Part shown: positions 7,180 through 34,407 of the stretch, one piece after another
How the letters are laid out: each line of letters starts with the position of its first letter
Numbering within the stretch: the first letter of the stretch is position 1
Assembly (NCBI GenBank): GCA_020722545.1
Contig: DYKQ01000012.1
Location: forward strand, 1 to 43,619
Direction of reading: 5' to 3'
DNA: 43,619 nucleotides
DNA from: Thiomonas intermedia
GTDB lineage: Bacteria > Pseudomonadota > Gammaproteobacteria > Burkholderiales > Burkholderiaceae_C
The notes under the pieces: model-generated
The model's database searches: none
Told to the model about the DNA's origin: nothing
The model's input: only the letters and a program-made list of their open reading frames with translations
Program-made: the position numbers and the translations under genes

Positions 7180-7803
7180 GTGGCTCGTTTTATTGGCGCC
7201 AAAGGCAAACTCACCCGCCGCGAAGGCGCAGACCTCTTTCTCAAGAGCGCGCGTCGCGGTATTGACTCCAAGGTCAAGCTCGAAACCAAACCGGGTCAGC
7301 ACGGCCGCACTTCCGGTGCTCGCACGTCCGACTACGGCAAGCAACTGCGTGAAAAGCAGAAGGTCAAGCGGATGTATGGCGTGCTTGAGCGTCAGTTCCG
7401 TCGTTATTACGAAGAAGCGCAACGCCGCTCTGGCAATACCGGCACCAATTTGTTGATGCTGCTGGAATCGCGCCTGGACAATGTGGTGTATCGCATGGGT
7501 TACGGCTCGACCCGTGCTGAAGCGCGCCAGTTGGTCAGCCATCGCTCGATCACCGTCAACGGCAAGGTGTTGAACATCCCCTCGGCGCTGGTGAAGACGG
7601 GCGACGTGGTCGCGGTGCGTGAAAAGTCGCGCAATCAGGCCCGCATTCAGGAATCCGTGAAGCTGGCTGAGTCGAATGGCTTCCCTGCCTGGGTGCAGGT
7701 GGATGGCGCCAAGATGGAAGGCGTCTTCAAGAAGGCCCCGGACCGCGATGAATTCGCCAACGACATCAACGAGTCGCTGATCATCGAGTTGTACTCACGT
7801 TAA
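7180..7803 (+). CDS. rpsD: 30S ribosomal protein S4 (GTG start)
   Basis: [42 protein letters not shown]...; S4 RNA-binding domain. Confidence 0.98.
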
Positions 7804-7918
7804 TTTTTATCCACGCCCCGGACTCCCGGGGTGTGTTCGCGCCTTGCCCACGCTGGCAGCGGCCGCTCACCTCAGCCTTATCCGCGTAACGTGCGGAGGG
7901 TATTGAACAGGAAGCCTC

Positions 7919-8905
7919 ATGCAAACTGCACTTCTTCGCCCCAAGTCGATTCAGGTCGAACCTCTCGGTCACAACCGTTCCAAAGTGGTGCTCGAACCTT
8001 TCGAGCGCGGCTACGGACACACCCTTGGCAACGCGCTGCGCCGCGTCATGCTGTCGTCGCTGGTGGGTTACGCGCCGACCGAGGTCAGCATCAACGGCGT
8101 GCTCCACGAGTACTCCGTGGTCGACGGCCTGCAGGAAGATGTGATCGGCGTGCTGCTCAACCTCAAAGGCGTGGTGCTCAAGCTGCACAACCGTGACGAA
8201 GTCACCCTTTCGCTGCGCAAGGAAGGCGAAGGCGTGGTGACTGCTGCTGACATCCAGACGCCTCACGATGTCGAGATCATCAATCCGGATCACGTGATCG
8301 CGCATCTGTCGCAAGGCGGCAAGCTCGACATGCAGATCAAGGTCGAAAAAGGGCGCGGCTATGTCCCCGGCACCCTGCGCAACTTCGGCGAAGAAGGCGG
8401 CAAGAGCATTGGTCATATCGTGCTCGATGCTTCGTTCTCGCCCGTGCGCCGCGTCAGCTATGCCGTCGAAAGCGCCCGCGTCGAGCAGCGTACCGATCTG
8501 GACAAGCTGGTCATGGAAATCGAGACCAACGGCGTGATCAGCGCGGAAGAAGCCATTCGTTCGTCTGCGCGCATTCTGGTTGAGCAGTTGTCGGTGTTCG
8601 CCAGCCTGGAAGGCGCCGAGACGACGGAGGCCGCCGAGGCGGCTGCGGGTGGACAGACTTACGATCCGATCCTGCTGCGCCCGGTTGACGAGCTCGAACT
8701 GACGGTACGCTCGGCCAACTGCCTCAAGGCCGAGAACATCTATTACATCGGCGACCTGATTCAGCGCAGCGAAACCGAACTGCTCAAGACCCCCAACCTG
8801 GGCCGCAAGTCGCTCAACGAAATCAAGGAAGTGCTCGCCGCGCGCGGCTTGACGCTGGGCATGAAGCTCGACAACTGGCCGCCCAGCGGCCTGGACAAGC
8901 GCTGA
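7919..8905 (+). CDS. rpoA: DNA-directed RNA polymerase subunit alpha
   Basis: [22 protein letters not shown]...; alpha-[48 protein letters not shown]. Confidence 0.99.
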
Positions 8906-25372: not shown

Positions 25373-25437
25373 CGCCCACTTCTACAGACCCGTCATGGCT
25401 TGGCTCAGATGCCGGATTGTGACCTCGATTGACGCAA

Positions 25438-25995
25438 ATGCACCACGCTGATCTTCCGCAAAGCGCATCCAGCCTCCCGCCGCAGGATGTTCCTGCCGTC
25501 GAGGCTGCGGTGGCGCTTGAGCAGGCGTGCGACCAAGCGCCCTATCGGGAGTCGGGCGATGGCTGGATGCGCGACTGGGTGTTTCGCCGCAACTGTTCCA
25601 TGTCACCGCGACAATTGATCGTGTTTTACGCCTCGCTGTGCGTGGTGTCGCTCATCGTGGCGTCCATCGCGTGGGATGTGGGCGGTTCGCTGGTGCTGCC
25701 GTTCACCGGCATCGAGCTGGGGTCGGTGGCGCTCGCGCTGGTGGTGTATGGGCGTCATGCCACAGACCGCGAACGAGTGCGCCTTTCGGCGCAGCAGTTG
25801 CAGGTCGAGTGGGAAAACGCGGGTGTCGTGCAGTCGGTCAGCTTCAATCCGCAATGGGTGCGGGTGTCGCTGCCGGATAGCGGGCTGATCGAAGTGTCTT
25901 CGGCTGGCCGCACGGTCTACATCGGCCGGTATTCGCGCCCCGAGCGGCGCGCCGTGTTGGCAAAAGATTTGAGGGCCGCGTTGCGGGCCCTTTGA
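25438..25995 (+). CDS. DUF2244 domain membrane protein
   Basis: WVFRRNCSMSPRQLIVFYASLCVVSLIVA...; two TM helices; position upstream of coxB is typical of the family. Start uncertain (ATG 25438 or TTG 25429). Confidence 0.85.
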   Translation: MHHADLPQSASSLPPQDVPAVEAAVALEQACDQAPYRESGDGWMRDWVFRRNCSMSPRQLIVFYASLCVVSLIVASIAWDVGGSLVLPFTGIELGSVALALVVYGRHATDRERVRLSAQQLQVEWENAGVVQSVSFNPQWVRVSLPDSGLIEVSSAGRTVYIGRYSRPERRAVLAKDLRAALRAL

Positions 25996-26035: not shown

Positions 26036-26902
26036 ATGAAAGCAATACATCAAATCCGTCTGGCCACCGCAGCATCGCTGCTGGGCGTCATGGGCGCGGC
26101 CCATGCCGCAGTGGAAAGTCTGCCGGGCGGGCCGCAGGTGCTGGGGCTGTATTTCCAGAACCCGGTTTCACCCATCGCCAAGCAGGAAAAATTCCTGATG
26201 GACATGATGCTCTGGGTCTGCCTGGGGATCGGTATCGTGGTGTTCGGGGCGATGTTCTATTCGGTTTACAAGCACCGCAAATCCAAGGGCGCCGTGGCGG
26301 CCCACTTCCATGAAAGCACCAAGGTTGAGATTGCCTGGACGATCATCCCCATTCTGATCGTGATTGCCATCCTGATTCCGGCGACCCGTACCGTGATCGC
26401 GCAGGAAAACCATAGCGACTCCTTCATGACCGTCAAGGCGACTGGCGCGCAGTGGAAGTGGGGCTACGACTACATGGCCGGTCCGGGCAAGGGCATTTCT
26501 TTCTGGTCCACGCTGACCACGCCTTATTCGGAAATCTACGAAGGCAAGGATCTGCCCAGCAACTTCGTGCTGGCCGTCGATCACGAACTGGTCGTGCCGG
26601 TGGACAAGAAGATCAAGATCATCACCACCTCGGATGACGTGCTGCACGGTTTCTACGTCAACTCGCTGGGTGTGCAGATGGATGCGATTCCCGGATTTGT
26701 GCGCTCGACCTGGTTCACCGCCGAAAAAACCGGCACCTATTACGGGCAGTGCGCCCAGATTTGCGGCAAATACCACGCCTTCATGCCCATCGTGATCAAG
26801 GTCGTGACCCTGCCCGAGTACGAGCAATGGGTCGCGCAGTGGAAAAAAGCCCATCCCGACAGCACCCCGCCAGCCGACGGCGCGGCGCCCAGCAAGACCT
26901 GA
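26036..26902 (+). CDS. coxB: Cytochrome c oxidase subunit II (CuA subunit)
   Basis: Signal peptide, two TM helices, CuA motif GQCAQICGKYHAFMPI; WKWGYDY. Confidence 0.97.
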   Translation: MKAIHQIRLATAASLLGVMGAAHAAVESLPGGPQVLGLYFQNPVSPIAKQEKFLMDMMLWVCLGIGIVVFGAMFYSVYKHRKSKGAVAAHFHESTKVEIAWTIIPILIVIAILIPATRTVIAQENHSDSFMTVKATGAQWKWGYDYMAGPGKGISFWSTLTTPYSEIYEGKDLPSNFVLAVDHELVVPVDKKIKIITTSDDVLHGFYVNSLGVQMDAIPGFVRSTWFTAEKTGTYYGQCAQICGKYHAFMPIVIKVVTLPEYEQWVAQWKKAHPDSTPPADGAAPSKT

Positions 26903-26991: not shown

Positions 26992-28623
26992 ATGAGCGCA
27001 GTCATCGATCACGCACCGCCATCGGCTCACGCCGGTGATCATGCCCACGAACATCCGCACGGCTGGCGCCGCTGGCTGATGTCCACCAACCACAAAGACA
27101 TCGGCACGATGTATCTGCTGTTTGCCTTGTGGATGCTGTTCGAGGGCGGCATCCTGGCCCTGGCTATCCGCACCGAGTTGTGGAAACCGTATGTCTGGCT
27201 GCTGAACCCTGAGTTGTTCAACGCCTTCGGCACCATGCACGGCATCATGATGATCTTCGGTTCGGTCATGCCCGCGCTGGTGGGCTTTGCCAACTGGATG
27301 ATTCCGCTGCAGATCGGCGCGCCCGACATGGCCTTCCCGCGGCTGAACAACCTGAGCTTCTGGCTGCTGGTTCCGGCTGGCATTTTGTTGACCGCGTCTT
27401 TCTTCGTGCCAGGCGGCGCGCCGGGTGTGGGCTGGACGCTGTATGCCCCGCTCACCCTGCAGCAAGGCATGGGCATGGATCTGGTGATTTTCGCCATCCA
27501 CATCATGGGCGCTTCGTCGATCATGGGTTCGATCAACATCATCGTGACCATTCTCAACCTGCGCGCCCCTGGCATGACGCTGATGAAAATGCCGCTGTTC
27601 GTCTGGACCTGGCTGATTACCGCCTATCTGCTTCTGGCGATCATGCCGGTGCTGGCTGGCGCCGTCACCATGACCCTGACTGACCGCCACTTCGGCACCA
27701 GTTTCTTCAGTGCCACCGGCGGCGGTGACCCGGTGCTGTATCAGCATCTGTTCTGGTTCTTCGGCCACCCCGAGGTGTACGTGATGATTCTGCCGGTCTT
27801 CGGTATCGTCAGCTCGGTCATCCCGGCCTTCGCCCGCAAGCGTCTGTTCGGCTACAGCTCGATGGTGTACGCCTCGGCTTCCATCGCCATCCTGTCCTTC
27901 CTGGTCTGGGCGCACCATATGTTCACCGCGGGCATGCCCACGACCGGCCAGCTGTTCTTCATGTACGCCACCATGCTGATCGCCGTTCCCACGGGCGTGA
28001 AGGTGTTCAACTGGGTGGCCACCATGTGGCGCGGTTCCATGACGTTTGAAACTCCCATGCTGTTCGCCGTAGGCTTCATTTTCGTGTTCACCCTGGGCGG
28101 TTTCACTGGCCTGATGCTGGCCATGGTGCCCATCGATACGCAGGTGCACAACACCTACTTCGTGATCGCGCACTTCCACTACGTGCTGGTCGCAGGTTCG
28201 CTGTTCGGCATTTTCATGGGCTTCTACTACTGGTCGCCGAAGTGGACCGGTGTGATGTACAACGAAACCGCAGGCAAGATCCATTTCTGGACCTCGATGA
28301 TCTCGTTCAATATCGCCTTTTTCCCGCAGCACTTCCTGGGTCTGGCTGGCATGCCGCGTCGCTATGTGGCCTACCCGGTGCAGTTCACCGATTTCAACCA
28401 GATCTCCACCATCGGCGCCTGGCTGTTCGGTCTGTCGCAGGCTTACTTCCTGTTCGCAGTGGTGATTCCGGTGTTGCGCGGCAAGGGCGAGAAAGCCCCT
28501 CAACGTCCCTGGGAAGGTGCGGAAGGTCTGGAATGGGAAGTTCCCTCCCCGGCGCCGTTCCACACCTATGAAACCCCGCCCAAGCTGAATGCCGATGCCA
28601 CCCGTGTGCTGGGCTACAACTGA
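26992..28623 (+). CDS. ctaD: Cytochrome c oxidase subunit I
   Basis: TNHKDIGTMYLLFA; FWFFGHPEVYVMILPVFG; HHMFTAGM; HNTYFVIAHFHYVL. Confidence 0.98.
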   Translation: MSAVIDHAPPSAHAGDHAHEHPHGWRRWLMSTNHKDIGTMYLLFALWMLFEGGILALAIRTELWKPYVWLLNPELFNAFGTMHGIMMIFGSVMPALVGFANWMIPLQIGAPDMAFPRLNNLSFWLLVPAGILLTASFFVPGGAPGVGWTLYAPLTLQQGMGMDLVIFAIHIMGASSIMGSINIIVTILNLRAPGMTLMKMPLFVWTWLITAYLLLAIMPVLAGAVTMTLTDRHFGTSFFSATGGGDPVLYQHLFWFFGHPEVYVMILPVFGIVSSVIPAFARKRLFGYSSMVYASASIAILSFLVWAHHMFTAGMPTTGQLFFMYATMLIAVPTGVKVFNWVATMWRGSMTFETPMLFAVGFIFVFTLGGFTGLMLAMVPIDTQVHNTYFVIAHFHYVLVAGSLFGIFMGFYYWSPKWTGVMYNETAGKIHFWTSMISFNIAFFPQHFLGLAGMPRRYVAYPVQFTDFNQISTIGAWLFGLSQAYFLFAVVIPVLRGKGEKAPQRPWEGAEGLEWEVPSPAPFHTYETPPKLNADATRVLGYN

Positions 28624-28631
28624 GATCAAAT

Positions 28632-28757
28632 ATGAGTAATCGCCAACTTCCCCCGGAAAAACGCCGTCAGAATTTCAAAACGGCGATGATCATGGTCAGC
28701 ATTGCCTTGGCGATTTACGTCGGTTATCTGATCAAGGCAGAGGTTCTCGGTTTCTGA
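28632..28757 (+). CDS. Cytochrome oxidase small assembly-type protein (41 aa, missed by ORF track)
   Basis: Translated by hand: MSNRQLPPEKRRQNFKTAMIMVSIALAIYVGYLIKAEVLGF*; single TM; 8 nt after the ctaD stop. Confidence 0.85.
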   Translation: MSNRQLPPEKRRQNFKTAMIMVSIALAIYVGYLIKAEVLGF

Positions 28758-28762
28758 CGAGC

Positions 28763-28804
28763 GAGAGCGGCAGGCCATCAATACAGGTGCTGTCGCTCTC
28801 TTTT
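28763..28804 (+). terminator. Terminator-like hairpin between the 41-aa ORF and the DUF2970 gene
   Basis: GAGAGCGGCAG (28763-28773) pairs with CTGTCGCTCTC (28790-28800; one G-U), followed by TTTTC. Confidence 0.5.
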
Positions 28805-28821
28805 CATCAAGGAAATGTGCG

Positions 28822-29034
28822 TTGAGCTCACCTTCTCAGCCCTCTTTCCTGCGCGCACTGGTTGCCGTACTCTGGTCTTTTGTCGGAATACGCAAATCGA
28901 GTGAGCGAAGCAAGGATTTTCATAATGCAAAACCCGAGCACATCATTGCGGCAGGACTGCTGGCCGCTTTGGTCTTTGTGGTCGGGCTGATATTGATCGT
29001 TAATTTAGTGATTTCAAGCGCAGCGCGCACATAA
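28822..29034 (+). CDS. DUF2970 domain membrane protein
   Basis: FLRALVAVLWSFVGIRKSSERSKDFHNAKPEHIIAAGLLAALVFVVGLILIVN; cox-cluster position; TTG start. Confidence 0.85.
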   Translation: MSSPSQPSFLRALVAVLWSFVGIRKSSERSKDFHNAKPEHIIAAGLLAALVFVVGLILIVNLVISSAART

Positions 29035-29045
29035 CAGGAGGCAAT

Positions 29046-29906
29046 ATGGCATCTACAACCCAGCCCCATGGCTATTTTCTGCCTGGGCCTTCCGCATATC
29101 CCCTGCTGACGGCGGCGGGTTTGCTGGCGATGGCGTTTGGCGCCGGGCTCTGGTTCAATGGCGTGCCGCACATGGAGTGGCTGCTGCTGGCCGGCTTCCT
29201 CTGGCTGGTGTATTTCGTGTATCACTGGTTCGGTCAGGCGATCGGTGAGAGCGAGAGCGGCAAACACAACCAGCGCGTCGATACTTCCTTTCGCTGGAGC
29301 ATGGCCTGGTTCATCTTTTCCGAGGTGATGTTCTTCGCCTCGTTCTTTGGCGCGTTGTATTACTCACGCGAATTTTCTCTGCCGGACCTCTCGGCCCTGC
29401 ACAGCAAGATTCTGTGGCCGAATTTCACGGGCGCCTGGCCCTCTACCGGCCCGGGCGGCTTGATTCCGTCGGTGCATGAGGCGCTAGGCCCATGGCCTAT
29501 TCCGACCATCAATACGGCACTGCTGCTGAGTTCTGGCGTCACTCTCACCATTTCTCACCATGCGCTGCGGGCATCGCATCGCGGCAAGGCCATTTTCTGG
29601 CTTTCGCTGACCATTGCCCTTGGTGTGTTGTTCCTTTTCATGCAGGGCTATGAGTATCACCACGCTTACACCGTCGAGGGGGTGAAACTGAGTTCCGGTA
29701 TTTACGGTTCGACCTTTTTCATGCTGACCGGTTTTCACGGTTTCCACGTGTTCCTCGGTGCCACTATGTTGTCTGTGGTGCTGATTCGTTTGATCAGGGG
29801 CAATTTCACTGCCGATCATCACTTCGCCTTCGAAGGCGCCGCCTGGTATTGGCACTTCGTCGACGTGGTCTGGTTGCTGCTGTACGTGTTGGTTTACTGG
29901 CTCTGA
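29046..29906 (+). CDS. coxC: Cytochrome c oxidase subunit III
   Basis: 286 aa; RWSMAWFIFSEVMFFASFFGALYYSRE; GFHGFHVFLGATMLSVVLIRLIRG; FEGAAWYWHFVDVVWLLLYVLVYWL. Confidence 0.97.
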   Translation: MASTTQPHGYFLPGPSAYPLLTAAGLLAMAFGAGLWFNGVPHMEWLLLAGFLWLVYFVYHWFGQAIGESESGKHNQRVDTSFRWSMAWFIFSEVMFFASFFGALYYSREFSLPDLSALHSKILWPNFTGAWPSTGPGGLIPSVHEALGPWPIPTINTALLLSSGVTLTISHHALRASHRGKAIFWLSLTIALGVLFLFMQGYEYHHAYTVEGVKLSSGIYGSTFFMLTGFHGFHVFLGATMLSVVLIRLIRGNFTADHHFAFEGAAWYWHFVDVVWLLLYVLVYWL

Positions 29907-29920
29907 CATCCACTCAGCAA

Positions 29921-29951
29921 AAAAATGCGCCGCAGGTTGCGGCGCATTTTT
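29921..29951. terminator. Bidirectional intrinsic terminator between convergent coxC and DUF2909 genes
   Basis: A-tract, ATGCGCCGCA-GGT-TGCGGCGCAT, T-tract. Confidence 0.85.
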
Positions 29952-29958
29952 GTTCGGG

Positions 29959-30162
29959 TTATTGCCCGACATCATGTGGGTGTATCCACCCCATTTTGTA
30001 GCTGATGATCAGAATCAAAAAAAGCAAGACCGAGAATCCGACCCGGAAAGTCAGTGCATACACAGCGCGATTGCTTTTGCCCCTATCCTTCATCACAAAG
30101 TAAAGCCCGGAAAACAGGCTGCCAATGATGAGCAGGAAGGCGATGGGGATCAGGATTTTCAT
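29959..30162 (-). CDS. DUF2909 / twin transmembrane protein
   Basis: MKILIPIAFLLIIGSLFSGLYFVMKDRGKSNRAVYALTFRVGFSVLLFLILIISYKMGWIHPHDVGQ; two TM helices; between coxC and SURF1. Confidence 0.85.
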   Translation of the reverse strand: MKILIPIAFLLIIGSLFSGLYFVMKDRGKSNRAVYALTFRVGFSVLLFLILIISYKMGWIHPHDVGQ

Positions 30163-30179
30163 GGTGCGGGCTTGTGCAG

Positions 30180-30977
30180 ATGTCTGAACAGATTACCTCA
30201 GATTCCGGGTTGCTGATGTCTGAGAAGGCCTTTGGCCCCAAAGAGTTGCTGATCATCATTTTCGGGCTGCTGGTGATTGGCGTGACGATGTCGCTCGGAT
30301 TCTGGCAACTGGGCCGCGCGCACGAAAAAGAGGCGCTGAATCTGCAGATGGATCAGCGCGAAAAGGCGCATCCCCTGCAGATCGGCCAGTCCGAAGTTCG
30401 GCTCAGTCGCGATGTCTGGCGGCGGGCCGCAGCGCGTGGCGTGTTTGCCGAGCAGTGGACGATTTACCTGCAGAACCGCCAGCAGAACGAGCAGACGGGT
30501 TTCTGGGTGCTGACGCCCTTGAAGCTCGCGGGCAGCGACACTTATTTGATGGTGCTGCGCGGTTGGGTGCCGCGAAATTTTCAGGCGATGGACTTGATCA
30601 AGCCCTATGAAACGCCTCAAGGATTGACAGTGATCGATGGACTTATCGCCCCGCCGCCATCAGAATTGTTTTCGTTTTTCGCCGAGCCGCCGGGTCAGGT
30701 CATACGCCAGAACGTCAATCTGCAGAAGTACGCGGACTTTCATCACATCAAGCTTCTGCCCTTCGTGCTGAGACAGTCGGGCGATCTGCACGATGGCCTT
30801 GGCAGGCAGTGGCCCGCCGCGAAAACCGGAGTCGGCGCCAATTATGGCTATGCCGCGCAGTGGTTTGGCATGAGTGCAACCGGCGCGGTGCTGCTGCTGT
30901 ATTTTGTTTATCAGCGTCTGCGCAAGACGAAGTCAAAGCGTGACGCAGAAGATACGACCGCACCGCGCCTGCTATGA
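30180..30977 (+). CDS. SURF1 family cytochrome oxidase biogenesis protein
   Basis: GFWQLGRAHEKEAL; YLQNRQQNEQTGFWVLTPL; NYGYAAQWFGMSATGAVLLLYF. Confidence 0.92.
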   Translation: MSEQITSDSGLLMSEKAFGPKELLIIIFGLLVIGVTMSLGFWQLGRAHEKEALNLQMDQREKAHPLQIGQSEVRLSRDVWRRAAARGVFAEQWTIYLQNRQQNEQTGFWVLTPLKLAGSDTYLMVLRGWVPRNFQAMDLIKPYETPQGLTVIDGLIAPPPSELFSFFAEPPGQVIRQNVNLQKYADFHHIKLLPFVLRQSGDLHDGLGRQWPAAKTGVGANYGYAAQWFGMSATGAVLLLYFVYQRLRKTKSKRDAEDTTAPRLL

Positions 30978-31041: not shown

Positions 31042-31692
31042 GTGAGCTCCCCCTTGACCTCCAGCCTGCCCCCCTCCGCCCAGCCGCCTGTGCGCAAACC
31101 GCGGTCGCTGTTGACGCTGTGGCTGCTGCTCGCCATGTCGGCAGCACCCATCGTGGCCGCGTTTTTTCTGTTCTACGTCGTCCATCCCGCGGGCAAGCCG
31201 CCTTACGGCAGTCTGGTCGAGCCGCAGCGCCCGATTCCCTTGAATCTGGGCCTCAAAACGCTGGATGGTCAACCCTACAACCTGAAACGGCTCGAGGGCT
31301 ACTGGCTGATGGTGATGGCAGCGCCGGGCGCCTGCGACAAAGAGTGCCAGCAATCGTTGTTTTACATGCGGCAGATCCGCATCGCTCAGGGCGATAACCG
31401 CGACCAGATCGTGCGCGTCTGGCTGGTCACGGACGATGCGCCGATCAATCCGGGCGTGTTGGAGCCGGCCGAAGGAACGTTGATCCTGCGCGGCAACCCG
31501 CAACAACTGGCCAGTTGGCTGCCCCACAAAGATGGCGGCTTGCAGGGGCCGACGTGGCTGGTCGACCCGTTCGGCCACCTGATGATGCAGTTTCCGGCCA
31601 ACCCCGATCCCACCCGGATGCGGCGCGTGCTCGCCAAGTTGCTCTACAACAACGCCGGCATCAAGTTCAAGCATGTGGAGCCCGTCCAATGA
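31042..31692 (+). CDS. SCO/thioredoxin-fold-like transmembrane protein of the cox cluster
   Basis: N-terminal TM, then LKTLDGQPYNLKRLEGYWLMVMAAPGACDKECQQSLFYMRQI (CX3C), LVDPFGHLMMQFP; GTG start. Confidence 0.8.
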   Translation: MSSPLTSSLPPSAQPPVRKPRSLLTLWLLLAMSAAPIVAAFFLFYVVHPAGKPPYGSLVEPQRPIPLNLGLKTLDGQPYNLKRLEGYWLMVMAAPGACDKECQQSLFYMRQIRIAQGDNRDQIVRVWLVTDDAPINPGVLEPAEGTLILRGNPQQLASWLPHKDGGLQGPTWLVDPFGHLMMQFPANPDPTRMRRVLAKLLYNNAGIKFKHVEPVQ

Positions 31693-32852
31693 GTGTCGCA
31701 AGCAATGCCATCTGGCAGTTTTCTCTGCACTGGGTGCAGGCGCTGGTGTGGGTGCTGGTGCTGGCCGGGGTGTTCTGGATGGGGCTGAAAATGCGCTGGT
31801 CCAAGCTCACCGCGGTACTGGTGTTCCTCACCCTCGATCTGGTGATGTTTGGCTCGTATGTGCGCCTGACCGACTCCGGCCTGGGCTGCCCCGACTGGCC
31901 CGGCTGTTATGCCAAGTTCACGCCGCTGCAGGCGCATGAGCAGATCGCGCAGGCGGTAGAAGAGCAGGGCGGCACCCAGGGCTATGTGAGCCCCTTCAAA
32001 GCCTGGGTGGAAATGATCCATCGCTACGTCGGCAGCATCATCGGCACGCTGATCATGGTGCTGCTGGCGCGGGTGATCTGGGCGAGAAAGCACGGAGAGG
32101 ACATCAAGCTCGGCCTGCCGATCGTGCTGTTTTTCTGGGTGATCCTGCAGGGCCTGTTCGGTAAATGGACGGTGACCCTGCAGTTGATTCCCCTTATCGT
32201 CACCTTGCATCTCATGGGGGGCGTCATCCTGCTGGCGCTACTGGCCTGGTTCTGGATGCGAAACCGGGCAGATCTGGTGAGCGTGAACGCCGGTACGCTC
32301 ACGCGCACCCTGCTGTGGATCGCGATGATCGCGGTCGGCATTCAGATTTTCCTCGGCGGCTGGACGAGCACCAACTACGCCGCACTGGCCTGCAGCGGCT
32401 TCCCCGCCTGCAATGGAAGTTTCGACCCCAACGCCAACTGGGCGCAGGGCTTCACGCTCTGGCGCCACCTGGGTCTGACCGGTGACGGCCAGCCGATCAC
32501 CGAGGCCGCGCTGGTGGCCATTCAGTGGGGGCACCGCCTGTTCGCCATCGTAGCCACTGCGGCGGTGTTCGCGGCCGTGGCGGCGCTCTGGCGTTTTTCA
32601 GCATTGCGCCGCTTGGCGATGTGGATTGCAATTGCCGTGGTGCTGCAAGTCGTTTTCGGCATCGTGCTGGTGACCGAGGGCCATCCCCTGATCGTCGCGG
32701 TGGCGCATAACGGCGGCTCGGCCATTCTGATTCTGCTGCTCGTGATGGGGATTTACCGAGTCAGCGCTACCGTGCGCCAACAAGCGCCTTCGGAATCGCT
32801 GGGTTCGGCCTTCGTCAAGGTGACGCCGCCCCATCCCTTGCCGAAACACTGA
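31689..32852 (+). CDS. ctaA: Heme A synthase, COX15/CtaA family
   Basis: [60 protein letters not shown] overlap with the preceding gene; ORF track start at 31515 is too early. Confidence 0.95.
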
Positions 32853-32872: not shown

Positions 32873-33781
32873 ATGAATCATCAAGTTCTCAACAACACCC
32901 CCAGTCCCCTGCGAGTTGCGTCGCAGCTTTATGCGCTGACCAAGCCGCGCGTGGTGCAGCTGATCGTGTTCTGCGCGGTCATCGGCATGTTTCTCGCCGA
33001 GCCCACCCTGCCGGCTTGGCAACCGGTGTTGTTCGGCACGCTGGGCATCTGGCTGGTGGCCAGCGCCGCCGCCGCGTTCAACTGCTTGGTCGAGCAGAAG
33101 ATCGATGCGGTGATGCGCCGCACCGCCTGGCGGCCCTCGGCCAATGGCGAACTGAGCGCGCCGACCATCATCACGTTTTCTGGGGTGCTGTGCGCGGTCG
33201 GCATGTGGCTGCTCTACACCCAGGTCAACCCGCTGACCATGTGGCTGACCTTCGGCACCTTCGTCGGCTATGCCGTGGTTTACACCATTTTTCTCAAACC
33301 GGCCACGCCGCAGAACATCGTCATTGGCGGCGCCTCGGGCGCCATGCCGCCGGTACTGGGCTGGGCCGCTGTGAGCGGCCACGTCTCGGTCGAGGCCATG
33401 CTGCTGTTCCTCATCATTTTTCTGTGGACGCCGCCGCATTTCTGGGCGCTGGCGCTTTACCGGGTGGATGATTACAAAAAGTCCGGTCTGCCCATGCTGC
33501 CGGTCACGCATGGTTCCGAGTTCACCCGCACGCAGATTCTGCTCTACACCCTGCTGCTCAGCGCGGTGACGCTGCTGCCCTATGTGCTGGGCATGAGCGG
33601 CCTGATCTATTTGGTCAGCGCGGTGGTGCTCGACGGCATTTTCATCGCCTACGCCTGGGCGCTCAAACGCGAGTACAGCGATTTGCTCTCGCGCAAGACC
33701 TTCCGCTATTCCATCCTGTACCTTTCGCTGCTCTTCGCCGCCTTGCTGGTGGACCATTACCTGCACTTCCATTTCGTCTGA
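32873..33781 (+). CDS. ctaB: Protoheme IX farnesyltransferase (heme O synthase)
   Basis: [54 protein letters not shown]. Confidence 0.96.
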
Positions 33782-33792
33782 ACTCTCGTCTG

Positions 33793-34407
33793 ATGCCCCC
33801 ACGCTTTTCCGCCGCGCGCCGCTCGCTGGTTCTGTCTGCCGCCTTTGCGCCCCTTGCGCCTTTGGTGCTGGCGGCCTGCAGCAAGCCCTATGTGTTTCAC
33901 GGCGTGGACATCACCGGGGTGCCTTATGCCGACGGCTTTTCGCTGACCGACTTCAATGGCAAGACGCGAACCCTGGCTGACTTTGCCGGCAAGGTAGTGG
34001 TGATGTACTTCGGCTATACCCAATGTCCCGACATCTGCCCGGCATCGATGCAGGTGGTGGCGCAGGCCTTGGACGATCTGGGCGAGAAAGCCCGCGATGT
34101 GCAGTTCTTGTTCGTTACCGTCGATCCGGAGCGTGACACGCCGGAAATCCTCAAGGCCTACGTCACCCATTTCAACCCGACTTTCCTGGCGCTTACCGGC
34201 ACGCCCGCGCAGATCGCGCTGACGGCGAAAGACTTCAAGGTGTATTACAAAAAAGTGCCGGGCAAGACGCCGGGTAGCTACACCATGGATCACACCGCCG
34301 GGTTTTATGTGTTCGATCCCAAGGGCAAGATCCGGCTGTTCGAGCGCGAGGGCGTCTCGGCCAAGGATCTGGCACAGGACATCAACGCCCTGATTGAAGG
34401 GCATTGA
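33793..34407 (+). CDS. SCO1/SenC family copper-binding protein
   Basis: [20 protein letters not shown] (CX3C), [32 protein letters not shown]; lipoprotein-like N-terminus (LAAC). Confidence 0.94.

Follow-up and report, generated by a model that had tools for sequence, protein, structure and literature searches.

An aa3 oxidase cluster without cox11 in Thiomonas and a Caa3_CtaG protein as the probable substitute for Cox11

The window analysed here, a stretch of 43,619 nucleotides of a Thiomonas intermedia contig, carries between 26.0 and 34.4 kb a betaproteobacterial aa3 oxidase cluster in which all the usual genes were recognised except cox11, on the basis of open reading frames and, for most genes, Pfam/NCBIfam matches. 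These data confirmed the gene order proposed in a preliminary description of this DNA (coxB, coxA, a 41-aa ORF, a 64-nt gap, DUF2970, coxC, a DUF2909-like gene on the opposite strand, SURF1, a CX3C protein, ctaA, ctaB and SCO1), together with the boundaries that it had given for the gap, the small ORF stopping at 28757 and DUF2970 starting at 28822, with 64 nt between them. The features are as follows.

26036..26902, + strand: coxB, aa3 oxidase subunit II (PF00116/PF02790), CuA motif CAQICGKYHAFM present
26992..28623, + strand: coxA, A1-type subunit I (TIGR02891 CtaD_CoxA, 703 bits), with GHPEVY, WAHHMFTAGM and HFHYVL motifs; pN/pS ~0.04 in the genus
28632..28757, + strand: 41-aa single-TM ORF, probable cytochrome oxidase small assembly protein, normally directly 5' of cox11 (NF038351, 21.1 bits; homologues in the family)
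28758..28821, + strand: 64-nt gap at the cox11 slot of same-family relatives, without cox11 remnant
28763..28800, + strand: hairpin in the former cox11 slot, its structure found in all 10 congeners examined and its sequence mostly dissimilar among them
28822..29034, + strand: DUF2970 small membrane protein, TTG start (PF11174)
29046..29906, + strand: coxC, subunit III (PF00510)
29959..30162, - strand: DUF2909-like twin transmembrane helix protein (NF033233)
30174..30977, + strand: SURF1 (PF02104)
31042..31692, + strand: CX3C protein, weak match to a redox-active disulfide family (NF058629, 33 bits against a cut-off of 230), with a homologue in the relative G013 (L136)
31689..32852, + strand: ctaA, heme A synthase (PF02628)
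32873..33781, + strand: ctaB, heme O synthase, from homology and position (69% identical homologue in the G013 cluster)
33793..34407, + strand: SCO1 (PF02630)

The match of the 41-aa ORF to NF038351 ("cytochrome oxidase small assembly protein") is weak and lies below the cut-off of 27.5 bits; the ORF is conserved across the genus (pN/pS 0.06). Positions 29907-29958, which separate coxC from the convergent DUF2909-like gene, form a strong fold (z -4.8), likely a bidirectional terminator.

A Cox11 profile derived from 16 same-family relatives detected no Cox11 in six-frame searches of the window, nor was it found with PF04442 in the window's own assembly (2.41 Mb, 87% complete), an absence that is weak evidence when taken alone. 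Across the genus, PF04442 had no match in any of 13 Thiomonas genomes, comprising that of the window and 12 others (Thiomonas sp. 3As, G006, among them); three of the 13 are rated ~100% complete, two of those being in 2 contigs. The family-specific profile, read down to E<=10, was likewise empty in 13/13, yet it matched in all four positive controls (G013, G043, G065 and G040), including the remote Cox11 of G040. Cox11 was kept in 23/24 other sampled genera of the family (PF04442). The earlier suspicion that Cox11 might be missing from the whole genome is thus supported by both searches. The family loci examined have cox11 between coxA (followed by the small ORF where found) and DUF2970, and no remnant of it was detected by six-frame profile search in this slot, whether in the window, in the Thiomonas clusters or in other Cox11-less clusters. 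One of the latter, from another family (G090:C183, L215, ~7740-8480), has ~600 bp of non-coding DNA between the small ORF and DUF2970; this stretch gave no Cox11 profile match and is possibly a decayed gene. The preliminary description had itself named two observations that would speak against its reading: the order without cox11 did prove to be standard in the genus and to occur in some other families, and the cox11 gene at another locus that was to accompany it was not found. It would appear that cox11 was cleanly deleted from the operon, leaving the slot now taken up by the hairpin.

The oxidase itself bears the marks of an A1-type aa3 cytochrome c oxidase: CoxA scores above the TIGR02891 equivalog cut-off (671 bits), the CuB and heme motifs (GHPEVY, HH, HFHYVL) are kept, and CoxB has its CuA motif. 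Within the genus, pN/pS was 0.043 for CoxA and 0.05 for CoxB, and the cluster was present in 10/13 congeners with a CoxA identity of ~97-100%. Such strong purifying selection on CoxA implies that the aa3 oxidase is in use, and an oxidase so constrained presumably obtains its CuB from some source; the earlier argument that another copper route would be needed if Cox11 were absent gains support from the genus-wide absence. In two incomplete congeners (G010 and G012) ctaG1, described below, was present and aa3 CoxA was not found. Six congeners have a second A1-type coxA, 84-86% identical (G011:C72, L126:11040-13423; G001, G002, G003, G004 and G009). In G011 this gene is without recognisable coxB or coxC and adjoins what were judged by eye to be an Fnr/Crp-like regulator and an apparent relative of the window gene at 25429-25995; in G004 it follows a coxB.

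Two unrelated factors have been named for CuB assembly, Cox11 and, tentatively, the Bacillus-type Caa3_CtaG (PMC9145763; PMC6431628). The latter family (PF09678) was found in 13/13 Thiomonas genomes, with E values of ~1e-45 to 1e-47, and in 3/24 other sampled genera of the family. In the window's genome the gene, here ctaG1, lies outside the window on another contig (C32:4691-5545, - strand). Its product is a member of the family, scoring 157.1 bits over positions 3-236 of the 237 in PF09678 (gathering cut-off 27.7), and is not a Bacillus-type equivalog, since its 19.2 bits against TIGR02737, the Bacillus CtaG equivalog model, are far below the cut-off of 279. ctaG1 is under constraint (pN/pS 0.18) and stands alone, in an order of aminotransferase, ctaG and rnr that is conserved wherever the contigs reach; a sequence comparison with solved structures gave no match for this CtaG family. 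A second, divergent CtaG is encoded in most Thiomonas genomes, within a separate oxidase operon that has its own SCO. In two genomes (G000:C69, L163; G006:C2, L164) this divergent heme-copper oxidase operon, with its SCO and CtaG, includes several c-type cytochromes and has a haemoglobin-like gene nearby.

The link between the two factors was followed in an order-wide sample of 299 Burkholderiales genomes, 195 of which have an A1 aa3 CoxA at E<=1e-150. Eleven of these 195 lack Cox11, and Caa3_CtaG was present in 11/11 of them vs 16/184 of those with Cox11 (Fisher p 4.5e-11, by a test that ignores shared ancestry). The 11 genomes are spread over five families and so amount to about five events rather than 11, which makes the p value look stronger than the evidence is; one of the 11, G144, is congeneric with two genomes that keep Cox11 (G065 and G107). 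Three genomes of family f4 (G086, G185 and G281) have Caa3_CtaG and no aa3 CoxA at the same threshold. When 46 CtaGs were placed in a tree, every one of the 11 Cox11-less genomes had a CtaG in one 30-row clade (support 100/99), whose branching departs from the families and thereby suggests horizontal transfer. The clade is marked by a cysteine in the motif YPxYxxCGRA, the first half of which is variable, some residues N-terminal of an invariant Asp; this cysteine was present in 30/30 rows inside the clade and 0/16 outside it, and could be a copper ligand. The Asp is invariant in both of our Caa3_CtaG alignments (46/46 and 27/27 rows) and, together with a His, occupies the candidate metal positions; an invariant Asp has been described for the family (B. 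subtilis D249; PMC8239418), and we equated the two, D249 being in an outer loop, by that description rather than by direct alignment. Several other genomes, among them G069, G090 and G144, which lack Cox11, have a CtaG gene of the same clade next to a SCO gene. Six sampled aa3-bearing genomes have both a CtaG of this clade and Cox11, which means that the two are not mutually exclusive, and such coexistence may come before replacement.

We consider it likely, from these patterns of presence and absence, that Thiomonas lost Cox11 and had it replaced by a Bacillus-type CtaG (Caa3_CtaG, PF09678), which probably substitutes for it as the CuB assembly factor. The copper of CuB would be delivered to CoxA, or positioned in it, by CtaG through the conserved His and Asp and the clade-specific Cys, with SCO and PCuAC still building CuA. 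Against replacement stands the fact that ctaG1 is unlinked to the aa3 operon in Thiomonas, and the existence of the second CtaG in an oxidase operon of its own leaves room, in principle, for CtaG1 to act on a different oxidase. The notion that Cox11 is present and was simply missed can draw on the 87% completeness of the window's genome, but an oversight due to incompleteness or extreme divergence was ruled out, to a vanishingly small residual likelihood, by its absence from all 13 congeners, the three rated ~100% complete included, and by a profile sensitive enough to pick up the remote Cox11 of G040. It is also very improbable that no insertion factor is needed because the aa3 oxidase is in decay or has no CuB. 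Further terminal oxidases do exist in the genus, strain 3As being reported to have cbb3, bd and aa3 (PMC2829063); however, the intact CuB and heme motifs, the low pN/pS of CoxA and CoxB, and a cluster kept in 10/13 genomes at ~97% or higher CoxA identity all speak against such decay.

The preliminary description had named SCO1, the CX3C protein or PCuAC as possible replacement routes, and the genome search for PCuAC that it called for did find this factor, usually as two genes per Thiomonas genome, next to 3-7 SCO-family matches (by Pfam, weak ones included). Such a supply would suit a direct loading of CuB by SCO and PCuAC, or by the CX3C protein, as proposed for cbb3, with Cox11 dispensable and CtaG incidental, and SCO may have assumed CuB insertion in C and some A2 oxidases (PMC6431628). 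We nevertheless find this unlikely and rejected these proteins as the replacement, because relatives that keep Cox11 have them too (SCO in all 61 relatives searched, PCuAC in 44/49 genera, a CX3C homologue in the Cox11-bearing G013) and they give no account of its loss, whereas CtaG does track it. They may remain needed for CuA or for upstream copper supply. Thus, of the earlier answer to the missing Cox11, the absence and the need for an alternative route stood and the routes named did not; the factor that follows the loss is a Caa3_CtaG encoded on another contig. The hairpin noted earlier in the gap proved to be real (-23.7 kcal/mol, z -2.65), and nine congeners likewise have a hairpin at this position (z -2.9 to -7.4), with <1% of shuffles equalling it in every case; cox11-bearing relatives have a cox11-DUF2970 gap of <40 nt and no comparable hairpin. 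A deletion scar, or a simple terminator set between coxBA and coxC, was suggested by the TTTT that follows the stem in the window; both readings seem rather improbable. A neutral scar would decay, and here a strong structure is kept in 10/10 congeners with little similarity of sequence (that of strain 3As resembles the window's, and some pairs show partial likeness), in a gap with no detectable remnant of cox11. An intrinsic terminator would be expected to retain its U-run, which is TTTT in the window's copy only, CTCTT in strain 3As and missing from most species, so that a GC-rich stem with a U-run conserved in relatives was not found and the terminator was rejected. The hairpin looks like a selected structure rather than a scar; our guess is that it serves as an mRNA stability or processing element, probably adjusting how stable the coxBA message upstream and the coxC message downstream are, or how strongly each is expressed relative to the other.

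Taken across the order, replacement of Cox11 by CtaG leads to a broader model, which we favour with somewhat less assurance: a CGRA-cysteine clade of CtaG, spread horizontally in Burkholderiales, would functionally substitute for Cox11 in CuB insertion, several lineages having made this exchange while keeping the other aa3 operon genes and the factors for CuA, and the vacated slot of Thiomonas having become a conserved regulatory hairpin. That Caa3_CtaG can stand in for Cox11 is already recognised as a possibility when phyla are compared. A search of open-access papers turned up no description of such a replacement for Thiomonas, or of a swap within an otherwise unchanged betaproteobacterial operon, although this is not proof that there is none. 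Few steps in the assembly of cytochrome oxidase are as poorly understood as the loading of CuB, and a genus in which only the CuB factor Cox11 is gone, SCO and PCuAC are kept and CtaG is present amounts to a natural complementation experiment, predicting that CtaG does the job of Cox11. If true, this would be natural-swap evidence for Caa3_CtaG as a CuB factor; closely related systems are available in which the prediction can be tested. For annotators, a missing cox11 does not necessarily mean a defective aa3 oxidase.

Cox11 (PF04442, the Rhodobacter and mitochondrial type, also called CtaG) would share with CtaG1 the job of CuB insertion in the same type of CoxA, within a cluster otherwise like that of relatives; the two are not homologous, Cox11 being a single-TM periplasmic protein with a CXC copper site and Caa3_CtaG a multi-TM membrane protein. 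The Cox11-less aa3 clusters of other Burkholderiales (families f4, f9, f30 and f34) resemble that of Thiomonas in keeping most other cluster genes and in having the same CtaG clade elsewhere in the genome, and differ in the neighbourhoods of CtaG, some of them beside SCO; the slot hairpin was looked at closely in Thiomonas only. With B. subtilis CtaG, which is needed for caa3 and not for the related aa3 quinol oxidase, and whose service to CuA or to CuB is still open (PMC9145763; PMC13344008), CtaG1 shares the Pfam family (157 bits, with the profile covered almost from end to end), the invariant Asp and the character of a cytochrome oxidase assembly factor found where Cox11 is not. Thiomonas CtaG1 differs from it in its score on TIGR02737 (19 vs 279 bits), its place as an orphan gene beside rnr and its CGRA cysteine, and in its proposed service to a proteobacterial aa3 oxidase of type A1, the relatives of which are served by Cox11.
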